From NCBI GenBank assembly GCA_026461075.1, contig JAPJNH010000029.1:1-33685 (forward strand): a stretch of DNA of 33,685 bases. The letters are read 5' to 3'. Position 1 is the stretch's first letter; every line of letters begins with the position of its first letter. The DNA comes from Chitinophagales bacterium. GTDB taxonomy: Bacteria > Bacteroidota > Bacteroidia > Chitinophagales > CAIODY01. The position numbers and the translations under genes were made by a program. Shown here piece by piece: positions 25,512-32,622 of this stretch. Below the pieces are notes generated by a model that saw nothing but the letters and a program-made list of their open reading frames with translations, ran no database searches and had not been told where the DNA came from.

Positions 25512-27089
25512 CTAATGGTCGTTTTGAACCACTACTTTGTCTTTTTTGCTATAGCGAATCAATAACACGATCGGAATACATAACAATATTACGAATCCAA
25601 TATTGATGAACCCTTGATTGTAGCATACAATAGCTTGTTGCTTGAACAACATTCCGTCCATCATTTTCAAAGCCAATGTTTGTGCTTCGTCAATAGTCTT
25701 ACCTGCTCCGAGAAAGAGTCTGGTTAAATTTTCAAAACGTTCGCTGCTCACCACATCATATTGCGTAAGATAACCGAGCATATTTCCTCTGACTTGGGCG
25801 TTAACACTGGTTAAATATACATTGATTAAAGCAATACCAAATGCGCCTCCTAATTGACGAATCATATTCGCAAGGCCCACCGCTTGCGCCATATCTTTTC
25901 CTTTTAGGTTGCCAACGGCTAAGGCAAGAATAGGCGACATCATAAAGGCCATTCCAAATCCACGTAATACAAATGGAAAATAGAAATTCGATTCATTAGA
26001 GTCGGGAGAGGATTGTCCTAATAACATCAAAAAGCTAAAGGTAAAAAACACGCCTCCGATAATTATGACTTTCGGATTCACTCCTTTCGCCATCAGCTTC
26101 GCAACAATAGGCATCGCAATAGCGGCGCATAAGGCTCCTGGTATCATGAACACACCTGTTTGGGTAGCGGTCCATCCTAAGGAGATCTGTGCGAATAATG
26201 GGAATATAAACACCGTTCCAAAAAGTAATATACCAAGAATGAAATTCATGATACTTCCCATCGCCAAGTTATAGTTTCGATACAGACGAATATTCACTGC
26301 AGGATATTCTATGCTCAATTCTCGGATGATAAAAGCAATCAATCCTGCGACCGCTAGTATCGTGAATAAGATAATTTCACTGCTTTCAAACCAATCTTTC
26401 GAGGTGCCTTCTTCCAATACAAATTGTAAGGATCCGACGGCGACGACGAGAAATAAAATCCCCCACCAATCGATCTTTTTCGGCTTCACCGCTCCGGGGC
26501 GGTTAGTAATATAATTCCAGGCTAAGACAGCAGCGGTCATACCAATTGGAATGTTTACGAAGAAAATCCAATGCCAAGAGATATGATCGGTGATATAACC
26601 ACCTAGAGTAGGACCAAAGGTCGGTCCCATAATCATACCCATACCGAAGATGGCATTGGCCGTACCCATCTGTGCGGGAGGAAAAGCGCCAATGATAATA
26701 GTTTGTGCGGTACTTAATAAACCTCCTCCACCAAGACCTTGCACAAAGCGCCAGAATACGAGGGTCCATAGACTATCGCTGAGGCCACACATCAAGGAAG
26801 CAAAAGTGAAGAGAATAACAGATGCGGTAAAATAGACTCTACGACCGAATAAGTCGGAAAGCATACTGGTAAGTGGAATGATGATAACATTGGAGATCGC
26901 GTAGGAGGTAGTCACCCACGCAATTTCAGTAGTGGTTGCACCGATACTACCACTGATTTCTCGAAGGGATACGTTTACAATGGTCGTATCAATCAATTCA
27001 AGAATAGCACAGCTGATCGCTGTGATAACAGTAATCCATTTGGTAAATCCTTGCGGATAGCTGATGCTTTCGATGGTAGTCTCTTGCAC
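25512..27089 (-). CDS. emrB: Drug efflux MFS permease, EmrB/QacA (DHA2) type
   Basis: A 525-aa inner-membrane proton-coupled exporter with about 14 membrane helices. Landmarks are LDTTIVNVSLREI in helix 1 (the DHA2 motif D1), motif A SMLSDLFGRRVYF, and motif C-like GMIMGPTFGPTLGGYITD. In line with EmrB it works with a periplasmic adaptor and TolC, both encoded just upstream. The start is GTG at 27089, 6 bp after the adaptor stop; no nearer ATG keeps the first helix. It is the last gene of the efflux operon and ends flush with the convergent GNAT-like gene. The substrate is not predictable. Confidence 0.95.
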   Translation of the reverse strand: MQETTIESISYPQGFTKWITVITAISCAILELIDTTIVNVSLREISGSIGATTTEIAWVTTSYAISNVIIIPLTSMLSDLFGRRVYFTASVILFTFASLMCGLSDSLWTLVFWRFVQGLGGGGLLSTAQTIIIGAFPPAQMGTANAIFGMGMIMGPTFGPTLGGYITDHISWHWIFFVNIPIGMTAAVLAWNYITNRPGAVKPKKIDWWGILFLVVAVGSLQFVLEEGTSKDWFESSEIILFTILAVAGLIAFIIRELSIEYPAVNIRLYRNYNLAMGSIMNFILGILLFGTVFIFPLFAQISLGWTATQTGVFMIPGALCAAIAMPIVAKLMAKGVNPKVIIIGGVFFTFSFLMLLGQSSPDSNESNFYFPFVLRGFGMAFMMSPILALAVGNLKGKDMAQAVGLANMIRQLGGAFGIALINVYLTSVNAQVRGNMLGYLTQYDVVSSERFENLTRLFLGAGKTIDEAQTLALKMMDGMLFKQQAIVCYNQGFINIGFVILLCIPIVLLIRYSKKDKVVVQNDH

Positions 27090-27095
27090 GTGCTT

Positions 27096-28160
27096 TTAGT
27101 TTTGAGTGTGCACGTCAACATTCACGCTCAAGCCAGGAACGAGCTTCGATTTCTGCTCTTCTGTTAACTTGCCAAGTTTGATACGTACTGGAACACGTTG
27201 TGTGATTTTAACGAAGTTACCTGTTGAATTGTCAGGAGGTAAAAGGCTGAACTTAGCTCCTGTAGCACCACCGAAGCTTTCAAGGGTTCCTTCCAATGGC
27301 ATGTCTTCAAAAGCGTCAATTTTCACCATAACAGTATTACCAATTTTCATTTTAGAAATCTGTGTTTCTTTGAAGTTTGCACTCACCCAGAAGTTGTCTG
27401 TATCTACACAAGAACAAACGGCTGTCGATACTTGTAAGTATTGACCCACTTCAATCGCTTTTTTAGAAACGATTCCATTGCAGGGCGCTTTAATAACGGT
27501 GTTCGCTAACTGGCTTTTGGCTAAGGCCAGTTCTGCTTCTCTTTGTTTGATAACCGCATTCGCCAAATTCACTTGTGAAGATTGCGCATTTGCTTGCATT
27601 TTAGCACCACTTGATTGAAACTTGCTGGCTTCACTTTGTTTGATGACAGCTGTTTCTTGTGCTTTTGCTGTAAGATATTCTGCATGGTAAGCATCGTACT
27701 GTTGTTGTGTAATTGCAGCGGCTTTTAATAATTTTTCTGCACGCTCTTGATCGTGAGAAGCTTTCTCAGTGCGCGCTTGTGCGGCGCGGATATTAGCTTC
27801 AGCAGCAGCGCGGGAGGCATTACTTGCTTCTGCATTATCACCAGCAGCAGATGCGCCAGAATGCGTCGCACTACTTTGTGCTTTTGCACTTTCTAAAGCG
27901 GCTTCTGCTTGTGCTACTTTCGCTAAATAATCGGTAGGGTCGATCATAGCAAGAGTGTCTCCTTGTTTCACGCTTTGATTGTCGTGAAACTTTACGCTGA
28001 TAACGAAGCCGTTCACAATACTACGTACAGGAATGATGCTTGCGTCAATTTGCGCGTTATCGGTCTTTTCATGACCTTTCGTGCTGTAATAAATTCCGCC
28101 AACAATTGCTAATACTACTAAGGCAATCGAAGAGATGATAATTAGTTTTTTTGAATTCAT
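27096..28160 (-). CDS. emrA: Membrane-fusion (periplasmic adaptor) protein, HlyD/EmrA type
   Basis: A 354-aa protein linking the inner-membrane EmrB-like pump to TolC. Residues 6-24 (LIIISSIALVVLAIVGGIY) form the single N-terminal membrane anchor. Then come TDNAQIDASIIPVRSIVNGFV (lipoyl half), a long Ala/Gln/Ser/Glu-rich coiled-coil hairpin (about 80-200), the second lipoyl half (VIKAPCNGIVSKKAIEVGQYL) and a beta-barrel (NFWVSANFKETQISKMKIGN). The ATG at 28160 is chosen; the frame is open to a TTG at 28181, which would overlap the tolC-like gene. It starts 10 bp after the tolC-like stop. Confidence 0.95.
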   Translation of the reverse strand: MNSKKLIIISSIALVVLAIVGGIYYSTKGHEKTDNAQIDASIIPVRSIVNGFVISVKFHDNQSVKQGDTLAMIDPTDYLAKVAQAEAALESAKAQSSATHSGASAAGDNAEASNASRAAAEANIRAAQARTEKASHDQERAEKLLKAAAITQQQYDAYHAEYLTAKAQETAVIKQSEASKFQSSGAKMQANAQSSQVNLANAVIKQREAELALAKSQLANTVIKAPCNGIVSKKAIEVGQYLQVSTAVCSCVDTDNFWVSANFKETQISKMKIGNTVMVKIDAFEDMPLEGTLESFGGATGAKFSLLPPDNSTGNFVKITQRVPVRIKLGKLTEEQKSKLVPGLSVNVDVHTQN

Positions 28161-28170
28161 GGTGGTGGTA

Positions 28171-29475
28171 TTAGCTGCCAATGGCGTTTAGGTAATTCAT
28201 TTTTAAAAGTTCCAATTGCGCAAGGTGTAATTTGAGGTTTAACTCCGCTTGATTTGCGCCGTCTAAGTCGGTAAGGTAGTCAGATGCGGTGATGATGCCG
28301 TTATCTAGTTGGTTAGACGCTGTTTCTTTGATTTGATTTTTTTGATAAACGATTTGTCTGTCTAGCGCAATCATATCAATGGTCTTTTGAATATCAGCAA
28401 GAATTTGATTTGCTGCCAAGTTCAAATTAATCGCAGCCATTTCCTTTTGATGTTCAATAAGGGAAAGTTGCGCTTTGCTAAAGGAACTTTGATGTTGTAA
28501 AGTGAAATAGTTGTTTAGGTTCCAGCTTAATCCTGCGCCAACCAAGCCATAAGTCCTAAAATCATTGTTCAAGAAATTGAAACCTGGACGGCCGTAGTAG
28601 CCTCTTCCGAAGACGAATACTTTTGGCATAGAGCCAAGTACATAAGATTTGAATTTTAATTTAGTGGCAGCGGTTTGTGCTTCAAAAGCGCGGAATTCAG
28701 GACGTAATATCGTGAGATACTCATCTCTATTAGTATTTGTTTTGAATGGCTGCGCCTGTGTGTTTTGGAATTTAATATTAACAGCAGTATCAGCTTTCAT
28801 CCCAGTGTATACGCTAATCGAATAGGCTGCATTATAGATAGCAGTTTGGCACTCTATTAATTTTTGTTGTGTCGAAAGATATTCAGATTGTAATTGAAGC
28901 AGTTGACTCTTCAACAGAACTCCGTTATTGACGGCGGCTTCTGCTTTTCTAATTTTAGCATCTAGCTCCTGCAAGCGCAAGATTAAGGTTGCTTTGTTTG
29001 CCTTTTGCAAAATAAAAATGCCAACCCAGTTGTTGATACGGTCTTTAATTCCAATCCATTGCGCGTCTATTTGCGCGCGTTGTGCAATGCCCAACATCGA
29101 CTCAGCCTTCTTTTCTGTTGCTATTTGTCCGTAGTCGAAGAGGTTTTGACGAATTTCTAAGCCAAGGCTATATTGATCAGGTTTTTGTTGAAAGACTGCA
29201 TTAGCAGGCATTCCAGGGAAAACGAATTCTGTTACCTCGCTTTGGTAAGTAGCACTTCCTGTTATATTTATTTGCGGAAGATAGTTGGCGCTTAAAAAGA
29301 CTTTTTTGTCTTTTTCTTGTTGAGCGATAAGTGTCTTTTGTTCTAATAATGGGTAATGTTTTTCCGCTGCATAATACAGGTCTGAAACACTGATCTCCAC
29401 ATTGTTTTGAGCGAAGCACACGCAAACGCTACACGAGGCTATCAGTAGCCCCGCTATTCTTTTTAAAGTAAGCAT
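28171..29475 (-). CDS. TolC-like outer-membrane efflux channel
   Basis: A 434-aa outer-membrane factor of the TolC family, giving the efflux complex its exit duct. The ATG at 29475 is chosen because it begins a signal peptide (MLTLKRIAGLLIASCSVCVCFAQ, cut near 23); the frame is open to 29517. Two OEP repeats of helices and strands are visible: SDLYYAAEKHYPLLEQKTLIAQQEKD ... LPQINITGSATY and RPEFRAFEAQTAATKLKFKSYVLGSMPKVFVFGRGYYG. It is the first gene of the tolC-emrA-emrB-like operon. A perfect -7 element lies upstream; no TetR/MarR-type regulator is adjacent. Confidence 0.93.
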   Translation of the reverse strand: MLTLKRIAGLLIASCSVCVCFAQNNVEISVSDLYYAAEKHYPLLEQKTLIAQQEKDKKVFLSANYLPQINITGSATYQSEVTEFVFPGMPANAVFQQKPDQYSLGLEIRQNLFDYGQIATEKKAESMLGIAQRAQIDAQWIGIKDRINNWVGIFILQKANKATLILRLQELDAKIRKAEAAVNNGVLLKSQLLQLQSEYLSTQQKLIECQTAIYNAAYSISVYTGMKADTAVNIKFQNTQAQPFKTNTNRDEYLTILRPEFRAFEAQTAATKLKFKSYVLGSMPKVFVFGRGYYGRPGFNFLNNDFRTYGLVGAGLSWNLNNYFTLQHQSSFSKAQLSLIEHQKEMAAINLNLAANQILADIQKTIDMIALDRQIVYQKNQIKETASNQLDNGIITASDYLTDLDGANQAELNLKLHLAQLELLKMNYLNAIGS

Positions 29476-29525
29476 TTTTAAGCAATTGCGTAGTATGGTG
29501 GTTATGGTCCTAAGCAAGTGCGGTG

Positions 29526-29666: not shown

Positions 29667-30326
29667 ATGAAAATTATACTTACTGGTGCCACAGGGCTTG
29701 TTGGGGAAGGTGTTCTTCTCACTATTTTAAATGATAAAAGAGTCGAAGTGGTTCTAAGCGTTTCTCGAAAAACGTCTGGAATAGTGCATCCTAAAATGAA
29801 AGAGTTGCTGGTCGCTGATTTTATGCAGATCCATGAATTAAAGGATGAATTAATGGGTTATGATGCCTTGTTTTATTGTGCCGGAATTAGTTCTTTAGGA
29901 ATGACAGAGGAGGCATATACCAAAGTAACCTATGATACGCCAATGGCTGTTGCCAAGGCACTTTTGAGTGTTAATCCCAATATGGTTATCAATCATATCT
30001 CCGGAGGAGAAACGGATTCAACAGAAAAGGGTAAAGTTATGTGGGCTCGTGTGAAAGGTAAAATTGAAAATGCATTAATGGCGATGCCCTTCAAAGCTGT
30101 TTATAATTTACGTCCTGGCTTTATGAAGCCTGCAGCAGGCCAACTAAATGTTCATTCCTATTATAAGGCGATTCGTTTTGCCTATCCATTTCTGAAATTA
30201 TGTTTCCCTTCTTACGGTTGTGAATTAAAGGAGTTAGGCACAGCGATGGTCAATTTAGTTGAACACGGCTACGATAAAAAAGTGTTGGAGGTCAAGGATA
30301 TTATTATGGCCTCACGTAAGGCTTAG
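29667..30326 (+). CDS. NAD(P)-binding epimerase/dehydratase-like (atypical SDR) protein
   Basis: A 219-aa cytosolic Rossmann protein. The dinucleotide loop GATGLVGEG is at 7-15, followed by VEVVLSVSRKTSG, which holds the second strand. A DALFYCAG segment and YNLRPGFMKP near the end resemble atypical SDRs of the NAD-dependent epimerase/HTATIP2-like type. The classical YxxxK catalytic pair is not obvious, so it may bind a nucleotide without the usual chemistry; the substrate is unknown. Monocistronic. Its stop codon overlaps that of the convergent desaturase gene. Confidence 0.85.
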   Translation: MKIILTGATGLVGEGVLLTILNDKRVEVVLSVSRKTSGIVHPKMKELLVADFMQIHELKDELMGYDALFYCAGISSLGMTEEAYTKVTYDTPMAVAKALLSVNPNMVINHISGGETDSTEKGKVMWARVKGKIENALMAMPFKAVYNLRPGFMKPAAGQLNVHSYYKAIRFAYPFLKLCFPSYGCELKELGTAMVNLVEHGYDKKVLEVKDIIMASRKA

Positions 30327-31414
30327 TTTCTTTTTACCCCCAGTTCCTGAAGTAGTCTGTAATGCGATGCAACCGCTTGAAATAAAGTCTGATTGATTAA
30401 ATAAGGAACATCATATTCTTTAGCAGTCGACTCTACAATTTTCGCAATAGCAGGGTAGTGCACGTGACAAATGTTCGGGAACAAGTGATGTTCTACTTGA
30501 AAGTTTAAACCTCCCATATACCACGTTAAGAATTTATTTTTTGGCGAAAAGTCAACCGTTGTATTCAACTGATGGATAGCCCAGTTATTGTCGATAACCC
30601 CAGCTTCGTTCGGAGTAGGGTGTGTTGTATGTTCGACAGTGTGTGCTAATTGGAAAGTGATGGTCAATACGAATCCCGCGATGAAGTGCATTAAGAAATA
30701 TCCTTTGAAGAACAAATCCATTGGGATGTGTAGGAAATAAATCGGCGCGAAAATAAAGAAGAAGCCATAGAATAATTTTGCTAAAATTATTCTACCTAAG
30801 ATAATTGCATTTTCTGTTTGGGAGTTTTTGTTAACGCCCTTTGAAATGTATTCATAGAACTGGTAGAAATCTTTTACAAAGGTCCAATAAATCGTCAACA
30901 TGCCATAAAACAAGAAAGAGTAATATTGTTGGTAGCGATGAAACCACTTCACTTCTGTATGCGGAGAAAGTCGTATAATTAATTTATCATTAATGTCATC
31001 ATCATAATTTGCGATGTTGGTATAGGCATGATGACGGACATTATGTTGTAATTTCCAGTTAAATACGGAACCTCCGATTAAATTAATGGAATAACCAAGA
31101 AGGGTGTTCAGTTTTGGGTTGGAAGAATAAGATCCGTGGTTTGCATCGTGCATAACGCTCATTCCAATTCCTGCTAAACCGAATCCCATAATTGACCAAA
31201 GCGTATAGTAAAGAACGTTTGGCATTGGGAGGCTAATAATGAGGGCGAATGAACCTAAATAGCAAAGTGCAAGGACTATGGTTTTGGTAACCATAGTAGC
31301 GTTACCATATTTAGTAATATTCTCGTTTTTAAAATATTCATCAACTCGGCTGCGCAATACAGAGAAAAAGTTGCTTTTAGCGGAGTCGACGAAACGTACG
31401 TGGGCTTGATGCAT
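30323..31414 (-). CDS. Membrane fatty-acid (acyl-CoA/acyl-lipid) desaturase
   Basis: A 363-aa integral-membrane di-iron enzyme introducing a double bond into an acyl chain. All three histidine boxes are present: HDANH at 89-93, HNVRHH at 124-129 and QVEHH at 306-310. The Q in the third box and the MHDANHGSYS/HHAYTN context are typical of front-end/linoleoyl-CoA desaturase-type proteins. No cytochrome b5 domain is fused, so an external electron donor is needed; a [2Fe-2S] ferredoxin is encoded about 1.2 kb upstream, though a link is only suggestive. Four membrane helices are visible. It is monocistronic. A change in lipid saturation with temperature is the usual role. Confidence 0.93.
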   Translation of the reverse strand: MHQAHVRFVDSAKSNFFSVLRSRVDEYFKNENITKYGNATMVTKTIVLALCYLGSFALIISLPMPNVLYYTLWSIMGFGLAGIGMSVMHDANHGSYSSNPKLNTLLGYSINLIGGSVFNWKLQHNVRHHAYTNIANYDDDINDKLIIRLSPHTEVKWFHRYQQYYSFLFYGMLTIYWTFVKDFYQFYEYISKGVNKNSQTENAIILGRIILAKLFYGFFFIFAPIYFLHIPMDLFFKGYFLMHFIAGFVLTITFQLAHTVEHTTHPTPNEAGVIDNNWAIHQLNTTVDFSPKNKFLTWYMGGLNFQVEHHLFPNICHVHYPAIAKIVESTAKEYDVPYLINQTLFQAVASHYRLLQELGVKRN

Positions 31415-31445
31415 GTTTAAAGATAAGGAGAATAAGGTGTTTTTG

Positions 31446-31453
31446 CAAATATT
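31446..31453 (-). promoter_or_regulatory. Candidate -7 element (AATATTTG) for the desaturase gene
   Basis: Seven of eight matches to TAnnTTTG, 31 nt before the desaturase ATG at 31414. A second, weaker TATCTTTA (31418-31425) lies 3 nt from the ATG, so two starts are possible. Confidence 0.35.
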
Positions 31454-31639
31454 GGTACTAGAGAGATGGCTCTTTTTGCGCTTGATGAAAGAAAAGACAA
31501 AAAAGTGGGAATTAGGTTAAATAAAGGTTTTGTGCAATATAAATGGTGGTTTTTACGGTAAAATACAGAATACTCGCCTCCTCGAAACTCACAAAATTTG
31601 ATTTCAGAGAATAAGGCTTAATAGCGAATACTTGGCTAC

Positions 31640-31696
31640 GGGTCGGGAGCGACTTGAATTCGTACAGTTAGGGGCAAAAAAAATCCCAACCTTTCG
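31640..31696 (-). repeat. Decayed tRNA-Leu 3'-end copy 1 plus terminator half
   Basis: Fifty-seven bp matching 31764-31820 at 55 positions, exactly 124 bp apart. On the minus strand it contains a T-loop-like TTCAAGT as in the real tRNA-Leu, but flanking stem bases no longer pair (ACGAA against CGCTC). It then joins the left half of a terminator hairpin whose loop has been replaced by a 29-bp palindrome. Confidence 0.75.
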
Positions 31697-31725
31697 TCCC
31701 GATTTCCCGAATGCTCGGGACGGGA
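31697..31725. repeat. 29-bp hairpin module 1
   Basis: A double inverted repeat: outer arms TCCCG/CGGGA and inner arms TCCCGA/TCGGGA around ATGC. It sits exactly where the intact terminator downstream (31800-31833) has its GTTA loop side. It shares 24 of 29 bases with module 2 at 31744, with differences mostly in the loop. Confidence 0.7.
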
Positions 31726-31743
31726 AGGATTTTTTGTACTCGG

Positions 31744-31772
31744 TCCCGAATTCCCGAAGTTTCGGGTCGGGA
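31744..31772. repeat. 29-bp hairpin module 2
   Basis: Outer arms TCCCGA/TCGGGA and inner arms CCCGAA/TTCGGG around GT. It interrupts the second tRNA-Leu-like copy just after the acceptor-like ACTCGG. It is the same length as module 1, and the two are probably one palindromic repeat family. Confidence 0.7.
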
Positions 31773-31820
31773 GCGACTTGAATTCGTACAGTTATAGGCA
31801 AAAAAAATCCCAACCTTTCG
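31764..31820 (-). repeat. Decayed tRNA-Leu 3'-end copy 2 plus terminator
   Basis: Partner of the copy at 31640-31696 (55/57 identical). It leads directly into the intact terminator of tRNA-Leu, so the true gene's terminator is shared with the last repeat. Confidence 0.75.
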
Positions 31821-31833
31821 GTTAGGATTTTTT
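31800..31833 (-). terminator. tRNA-Leu terminator
   Basis: A 12-bp stem with one G-U pair (AAAATCCCAACC at 31804-31815, GGTTAGGATTTT at 31820-31831), a TTTC loop, and A/T runs on both sides. It begins 1 nt after the tRNA 3' end. A related, interrupted copy lies at 31673-31738. Confidence 0.85.
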
Positions 31834-31834
31834 G

Positions 31835-31920
31835 TACTCGGGACGGGACTTGAACCCGTACAACCATTACTGGTCACAGGATTTTAAGTCCTGCGTGTCT
31901 ACCAATTCCACCACCCGAGT
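31835..31920 (-). tRNA. trnL-UAA: tRNA-Leu (anticodon UAA)
   Basis: An 86-nt class II tRNA on the minus strand. The acceptor stem is ACTCGGG/CCCGAGT, seven perfect pairs, with discriminator A. The D-arm reads GGAATTGGTAGACACGC, as in bacterial tRNA-Leu. The anticodon stem CAGGA/TCCTG encloses CTTAAAA with anticodon TAA. A long variable arm and a T-arm ACGGG-TTCAAGT-CCCGT follow. The CCA end is not encoded (genomic sequence after the discriminator is CAAAA). It reads the Leu codon UUA. Confidence 0.98.
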
Positions 31921-31926
31921 CCGTAG

Positions 31927-31958
31927 AAAAAAAAAGTACGACCCAGTCGTACCTTTTT
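31927..31958. terminator. tRNA-Gly terminator
   Basis: A perfect 7-bp stem GTACGAC (31936-31942) / GTCGTAC (31946-31952) around CCA. Nine A's on the left read as T9 on the minus strand, just downstream of tRNA-Gly. The two tRNA genes therefore probably have separate transcripts. Confidence 0.85.
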
Positions 31959-31963
31959 ATCTG

Positions 31964-32036
<73 letters not shown>

Positions 32037-32118
32037 ATGAGTGTTCTTTAGAACGGATTGCAAAGATACAACCCAACTTTAAATTTCCAAAAGTTTAACC
32101 GAAATTTTTTTTGAAATT

Positions 32119-32622
32119 CTACCGATGCTCGTCGAAATTGCCTAAAAGGTCTAAAATATGGGCATTCTCCGAATAAGCACCGATCAAATTACCTTTGCGA
32201 TCGTACTGTCGAATAAGCGGTATAAAGGCGAAGTCGAAATAATCATGCATTTTGTTTGCCCCATCCTGTAAAACAGTAATCGGTAATTTATCCAAATGAT
32301 ATTTTTCTCTAAAAGCGATGATAGCCGACTGCGGCTCGCGTGAGACCATCACAATTTGAATACCCTTGAAATACTTGATATATTCTACGATCTGCTTCGT
32401 TTCATATTGACAATGATCACACTCCGAATTGAAGCAAATAAATAACAAAGGCGTGTTCTTTATCAAGCTATCCTTCGTAAATAAACTGCTGTCCTTCAAG
32501 GTATAGAATACAAATGCTGGAATGTGTTTCGACTCCTTCAGCGTATCCATTTTGTCTTGCGCAAACGCGACTCCGTTAATGAAAACGAAAACGCTACAAA
32601 CAAGTACCAATAAGCCTTTCAT
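32119..32622 (-). CDS. Exported thioredoxin-like (AhpC/TSA-type) redoxin
   Basis: A 167-aa protein with a signal peptide (about 1-22, NGVAFAQ) and a thioredoxin fold. The redox centre CDHC (Cys68, Cys71) follows the strand LLFICFNSE, and the cis-Pro is in FAFIPLIRQYD near 132, followed by GNLIGAY. It is therefore expected in the periplasm as a thiol-disulfide protein of the TlpA/ResA kind, though it is shorter than many and its partner is unknown. Its gene starts 9 bp after the stop of the ferredoxin gene, so the two are probably co-transcribed. Confidence 0.88.
   Translation of the reverse strand: MKGLLVLVCSVFVFINGVAFAQDKMDTLKESKHIPAFVFYTLKDSSLFTKDSLIKNTPLLFICFNSECDHCQYETKQIVEYIKYFKGIQIVMVSREPQSAIIAFREKYHLDKLPITVLQDGANKMHDYFDFAFIPLIRQYDRKGNLIGAYSENAHILDLLGNFDEHR

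Follow-up and report, generated by a model that had tools for sequence, protein, structure and literature searches.

Copies of a tRNA-Leu(UAA) tail without an open reading frame in a Chitinophagales genome, and their likeness to tRNA-tail/GIY-YIG nuclease units

The GIY-YIG enzyme SegB of T-even phages cleaves tRNA genes internally, with a preference for the motif RAWTSGAAC, and is needed for the recombination-driven tandem amplification of a tRNA segment (PMC13096335). In the available portions of two sources, phage GIY-YIG homing endonuclease genes are described as lying between tRNA genes, often less than 1 kb from tRNAs of many isotypes (PMC13096335, PMC2988022). Enzymes of the SegB type resemble the Bacteroidota units reported here in that a GIY-YIG gene stands beside tRNAs, but they belong to phage genomes whereas the units are chromosomal; far-side partial tRNA copies, isotype grouping and ORF-less tail arrays are not described in those portions of PMC13096335 and PMC2988022. 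Mobile ORFs of fungal mitochondria (Allomyces atp6; Glomus atp6, atp9, cox2 and nad3) bring a new gene 3' end with them, and the endonuclease (LAGLIDADG, in one case GIY-YIG) lies between the rebuilt gene and the displaced copy of its 3' end, as set out in the accessible part of PMC3630166. Like the units described below, these systems have an endonuclease ORF flanked by a gene and its displaced 3' end; unlike them, they occupy mitochondrial protein genes rather than bacterial chromosomal tRNA genes, where the terminator is included in the copy and tandem arrays occur. A search of open-licence PMC full text found no published account of a target-copying element at bacterial chromosomal tRNA genes.

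Attachment sites of integrative elements involve a duplicated tRNA 3' end, and many of them begin at the tRNA T-arm. The locus studied here likewise has a duplicated tRNA 3' end, but the ten neighbouring ORFs scanned include no integrase, there is no island and the spacing is very short. REP sequences, which are commonly located behind genes, provide another comparison. With a 29-nt imperfect palindrome, about a dozen copies of it and a gene for a REP-associated tyrosine transposase (RAYT), the genome resembles known REP/RAYT systems, but such systems account only for the hairpins inside the tail copies and not for the copies themselves.

The window, that is, the whole 33,685-nt stretch of DNA that was analysed, corresponds to contig C112 in a draft genome of 2.5 Mb. 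On the minus strand, tRNA-Gly(GCC) is followed by tRNA-Leu(UAA), by a 420-nt spacer that includes a terminator-like hairpin at its start, and by a fatty acid desaturase gene (Table 1). Of the 30 tRNA places found in the genome, this is the only one for tRNA-Leu(UAA), and an Rfam scan of the region yielded nothing above gathering scores except the two tRNAs. The terminator-like hairpin folds at -17.6 kcal/mol, a stability equalled by none of 200 shuffles; a simple consensus terminator scan did not list it. Elsewhere in the window, adjoining genes for an MFS transporter, an HlyD-like protein and an OEP-like protein (25512-29517) form a tripartite efflux set.

Table 1. Features of the tRNA-Leu(UAA) locus in the window.
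Feature	Coordinates	Strand	Basis or remark
tRNA-Gly(GCC), intact	31963..32036	-	ARAGORN; Rfam 65.6 bits
tRNA-Leu(UAA), intact	31834..31920	-	ARAGORN, Rfam
Terminator-like hairpin of tRNA-Leu, perfect: 14-bp stem, GAAA loop, T run	31802..31833	-	fold
58-nt block, copy 1: terminator 3' arm, spacer and T-arm-like block	31763..31820	-	
T-arm-like tail copy 1 (TGTACGAATTCAAGTCGCTCCCGA), decayed stem	31767..31790	-	local alignment to tRNA-Leu
REP copy b, within acceptor/T-arm portion of tail copy	31744..31772	-	
Copy of tRNA-Leu 3' end and terminator 5' arm (CCGAGTACAAAAAATCC), 17/17 identical	31727..31743	-	
REP copy a, within copied terminator	31697..31725	-	
Terminator 3' arm in second block	31673-31696	-	
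58-nt block, copy 2	31639..31696	-	
T-arm-like tail copy 2, identical to copy 1; array end, TAGCCAAG flank	31643..31666	-	
Fatty acid desaturase, next gene	30323..31414	-	PF00487; same neighbour in closest relative

The spacer contains two blocks that are identical at 56 of 58 positions and lie 124 bp apart (31639-31696 and 31763-31820). Within 31200-32300 exact repeats reach 32 nt, whereas none in 1000 dinucleotide shuffles is longer than 15 nt. When the block is aligned locally with the T-arm and 3' end of tRNA-Leu, the score is 28, a value reached by none of 1000 spacer shuffles and none of 2000 block shuffles. A first-pass annotation made from the letters alone had taken the two blocks for copies of the 3' end of tRNA-Leu together with the terminator. 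This description was borne out, since both the alignment and the repeat exceed all shuffles, and the identity of 55/57 in its 57-bp frame, the 124-bp spacing and the recurrence of a 17-bp block at 31727-31743 and 31825-31841 (identical over 17 nt, 91% over 23 nt) were all reproduced. Folding also confirmed its statement that the copied T-arm has lost the stem. The span of 31640-31887 that it gave to the array was right in that the repeats are real, but position 31887 falls inside the intact tRNA-Leu and the copies stop at 31820. Each tail consists of a T-arm, the acceptor 3' strand and the terminator, and the tail copies lie about 45 and 170 nt from tRNA-Leu. The exact copy of the tRNA-Leu 3' end and terminator measures just 17+24 nt; tail and terminator together score 61 (cut 50, shuffle maximum 33), which makes the array a partial same-strand copy 3' of tRNA-Leu.

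Two 29-nt GC palindromes (31697-31725 and 31744-31772), absent from the first-pass annotation, break up the tail copies. REP copy a replaces three 5'-arm bases (AAC, minus strand) of the copied terminator and thereby abolishes its strong fold: 39 of 200 shuffles are as stable as the interrupted terminator, against none of 200 for the intact one. The two T-arm-like copies depart from the tRNA in the same way, whereas the pieces of its 3' end and terminator match the tRNA's own exactly; therefore, the T-arm copy appears to be older than the tandem duplication behind the 124-bp period, and at least two events would have taken place at the tRNA-Leu tail. Although the genomes are partly draft, the window copies differ from each other, which rules out a simple assembly echo.

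The palindrome reads TCCCG-TCCCGAA-NN-TTCGGGA-NTT-CGGGA. Allowing up to three mismatches, the full REP occurs 13 times in the genome of the window against 0 for the control, once in the relative G002 and not at all in the 38 further genomes searched; its 16-nt core has 57 sites where a reversed control has 7, so the palindrome is dispersed in the window genome beyond chance. A RAYT gene with the same palindrome on its flanks was found behind tRNA-Arg(CCT) by NF047646 (84.7 bits, cut-off 80), and G002 has an ortholog (95%). The protein scored 15.7 bits with Pfam Y1_Tnp, under that model's cut-off, and a PF01797 search of the genome at E 0.001 returned no RAYT; because the NCBIfam model did find the gene, the PF01797 search alone would be misleading. 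Six of 28 tRNA loci have a REP core in the 900 nt downstream of them and none of 30 has one upstream, where the 28 are those with downstream sequence and the window's tRNA-Gly and tRNA-Leu are counted once. The flanks of the listed REP copies, examined for GGTT targeting, share no fixed motif. The REPs in the window may have been mobilised by the predicted RAYT of this genome. A second hairpin class (GGTTCGTG...CACGAACC) is present at the RAYT locus (L153, L232), where in G002 a short unit of this class is repeated about nine times in tandem.

The same genome carries a tail copy at tRNA-Phe. On contig C69 (L003, 1400-2041), a stretch of 106 nt that takes in the 3' end of tRNA-Phe, its terminator and some DNA beyond recurs 486 bp away with 92% identity, and the ORF between tRNA and copy encodes a GIY-YIG domain (PF01541, 35.1 bits). 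The T-loop of the far copy is interrupted by a REP. The tail copies of tRNA-Leu and tRNA-Phe are of the same kind and both are hit by REPs, and the tRNA-Phe pair flanks a nuclease gene. Only one other GIY-YIG match exists in the genome, in a 613-aa open frame that is presumably UvrC. Compared with G002, the tRNA-Phe locus is conserved upstream and non-syntenic downstream, and offers no clean empty site. At a further locus (L197), tRNA-Ser(GGA), one of 28 tRNAs tested, has a 13-nt exact copy of its 3' part about 150 nt downstream, a match found in none of 200 shuffles.

Relatives of the tRNA-Phe GIY-YIG protein were present in 95 of 396 genomes of the order, this genome included. From the order-wide match table, to which fetched stretches were matched by eye, 120 loci were taken and classed by script; ten repeat stretches (L202, L220, L223, L226, L283, L284 and L339-L342) were not counted. 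An intact same-strand tRNA lies 5' of the gene at 89 of the 120 loci (82 within 150 nt and 7 at 150-800 nt) and 3' of it at 14, where the tRNA 5' head is copied in 11 cases; at the remaining 17, of which 10 are at contig edges, no tRNA stands on the same strand in the nearest 800 nt. Among the 89, a tail copy of the adjacent tRNA was detected at 77 under the strict cut and at 78 under the laxer one, for which the highest scores in 1780 shuffles are 34 (tail) and 33 (tail with terminator), so that the tail-only cut of 34 touches the shuffle maximum. The same tail search 5' of those tRNAs, used as a control, was positive at 4 of 84. Copies were missing at 12 of 89 loci for the tail (strict cut) and 3 of 14 for the head. 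Two or three genes stand in tandem at 13 of the 89, and 13/89 gene-bearing loci also have tail copies that no ORF separates from the tRNA, at a cut of 30 that leaves the weakest of these 13 within the shuffle range. These results strongly support tRNA-tail/GIY-YIG units as a real family.

The mirror arrangement, with the gene 5' of the tRNA and the head copy upstream, was seen at L210, L271, L277, L293, L297, L299, L304, L310, L311, L334 and L337. At L243, L255 and L287 the open frames of the GIY-YIG genes continue in frame from tRNA sequence, or extend into tRNA sequence at their 3' end, and deposited proteins may therefore carry tRNA-encoded ends.

The units are common in the order and also in a phylum sample, where a related protein was matched in 199 of 395 genomes. 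Among the best 30 phylum loci, which as best matches are a non-random choice and include three from the order itself, the tRNA lies 5' of the gene in 24 (21 of these with tail copies) and 3' of it in 2 (one with a head copy), and 4 have none. One of the phylum loci (L365, in the one-contig genome G674) has five tandem GIY-YIG genes at tRNA-Asp with a 315-bp period. A quick protein tree was built on 98 columns from 101 of the 120 loci, those excluded having no named tRNA or too short a match. On this tree the tRNA label (20 labels) changes 36 times, compared with 69-80 times in 300 shuffles, and the host family (11 labels) changes 37 times, compared with 47-59 when shuffled. All eight tRNA-Phe proteins, from several host families, form one supported group. 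The grouping by tRNA is the outcome expected under isotype-specific targeting, with the qualification that shared descent contributes to it and that the tree columns are few.

How variable the tRNA-Leu(UAA) tail is was seen in related genomes. The nearest relative by the window locus, G002, keeps the order of tRNA-Gly, tRNA-Leu and desaturase with a 181-nt spacer, and its tRNA-Leu spacer contains no tail copies. It does have GAATTCAAG after its own terminator, which differs from that of the window, at an almost equal spacing, so some of the T-arm likeness in the window could be old spacer. A control set of 30 tRNA-Leu(UAA) loci was made up of the window and the 29 fetched loci that match it best. 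None of these 30 loci, the nearest to the window in sequence, has a GIY-YIG gene, and tail copies are present in 3 of them, namely the window, G025 and G034; the arrays of G025 and G034 contain GC palindromes. In G034 (L027) the array has a tandem period of 177 bp, comprises the terminator, an inverted T-arm piece and the GC palindromes, and holds no nuclease gene. Elsewhere in the order, tRNA-Leu(UAA) does have a GIY-YIG gene behind it, at L209, L243, L251, L254, L264, L312 and L333, six of them with tail copies. In a same-genus set of 8 genomes around G031, tRNA-Leu(UAA) could be read at 11 loci in 6 genomes, with neither tail copies nor a GIY-YIG gene. The same-genus comparison reveals polymorphism at tRNA-Leu(UAA) without a clean junction, and no clean empty site was found.

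Our preferred reading, which we hold to be somewhat probable, is that the window contains an ORF-less, decayed tRNA-Leu(UAA) tail array, the nuclease-less relic of a tRNA-tail/GIY-YIG unit. Its tRNA is one that units use elsewhere, and its layout is that of ORF-less tails, which occur at some loci beside the gene and at others in its absence. No GIY-YIG gene lies between tRNA-Leu and the copy, and a GIY-YIG remnant was undetectable in the spacer (best hit E 0.3); we therefore call the window an ORF-less relic and not a full member of the family. A unit consists of a small GIY-YIG gene directly behind an intact tRNA, with the partial tRNA copy on the far side of the gene. In the mechanism that we consider likely, the endonuclease would cut its tRNA gene at the T-arm or close to it, and units would be inserted, multiplied or deleted when the break is repaired by recombination between tail repeats. 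The host would survive because the promoter-side tRNA keeps an intact tail. In our own reading the complement of RAWTSGAAC seems to resemble the T-loop, and the tRNA-Leu of the window differs from this SegB motif by two mismatches. These mismatches count against the relic reading, as do the undetectable remnant, the decay of the T-arm part, the shortness of the exact copy, the T-arm likeness that could be old spacer, the lack of the gene at the 30 tRNA-Leu(UAA) loci nearest to the window, the 12 of 89 loci without a tail copy (strict cut) and the 17 of 120 without a same-strand tRNA. A nuclease gene that formerly stood at the window site would since have been lost, leaving two dispensable tails, the spacing of 124 bp would stem from a final tandem duplication, and the dispensable copies may have received two REP hairpins belonging to the RAYT of this genome.

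The main rival to reading the window as a relic is a plain tandem duplication, produced by slipped replication or unequal recombination, in which a nuclease was never involved; we regard this as possible but rather unlikely. Its repeats would come from the hairpins of the terminator and of the REPs, and from the likeness between the right arm of the REP (TCGGGACGGGA) and the tRNA-Leu acceptor/T-stem strand; tRNA-Leu and REP have an 11-nt string in common. Such an origin agrees with a duplication that is tandem, local and recent, with hairpins at its junctions, in a window without a GIY-YIG gene, and with the two other genomes whose tRNA-Leu(UAA) tail arrays are also gene-less and contain GC palindromes. 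However, slippage leaves unexplained both the association of GIY-YIG genes with tail copies and the rarity of tail copies at gene-less tRNA-Leu(UAA), and it has to act at least twice at this tail because the T-arm block is the older part. For the last duplication step, slipped replication at hairpins, the alternative offered by the first-pass annotation, is a live rival. It is improbable, in our judgement, that the RAYT/REP system itself made the tail copies, with single-stranded hairpin mobilisation at GGTT-like sites carrying or re-copying the adjacent tRNA tail. The REPs within tail copies at both tRNA-Leu and tRNA-Phe, the RAYT gene behind a tRNA, the confinement of REP cores to the downstream side of tRNA loci and the replacement of GTT by a REP in two of three cases would all suit such a process, yet most listed REP copies lie outside tRNA tails, and the REP (up to three mismatches) occurs in just the window genome and G002 of 40 while tail copies are order-wide. 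A functional tRNA would purge insertions, which makes tails the places where insertions survive.

The explanation favoured by the first-pass annotation, that the copies are attachment-site scars of a tyrosine-integrase element, is very improbable. The start of the copies at the T-arm speaks for it; against it, the ten neighbouring ORFs that were scanned contain no integrase, the gene order is common to G002, which is free of copies and has no island, and the copies stand at some distance from the tRNA and are of a kind explained elsewhere by GIY-YIG cargo. That annotation had named two findings that would count against its proposal, the same repeat number in all relatives and no element ever mapping here. 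Neither describes the data: the repeat number varies, with 27 of the 30 tRNA-Leu(UAA) loci copy-free, and GIY-YIG genes do map to this tRNA in seven other genomes.

The family of GIY-YIG genes with tRNA tails is a more interesting find than the window array itself. We put at about even the chances of a wider interpretation, in which minimal selfish elements made of a GIY-YIG gene and a spare tRNA end occur throughout Bacteroidota in lineages tied to isotypes, the cut tRNA is rebuilt, and gene-less tails are non-autonomous or dead offspring that offer REPs safe landing places. Copying the target in order to stay harmless is known from fungal mitochondria, and tRNA genes are essential and conserved. 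If the interpretation is true, the spare end would rebuild the tRNA, so that insertion into an essential gene would cost nothing. The pattern predicts which nuclease cuts which tRNA gene, and where, with tail copies as the footprints of the nucleases. The abundance of small GIY-YIG genes in Bacteroidota would likewise be explained, as would recurrent tRNA fragments that could otherwise be mistaken for attachment-site scars.
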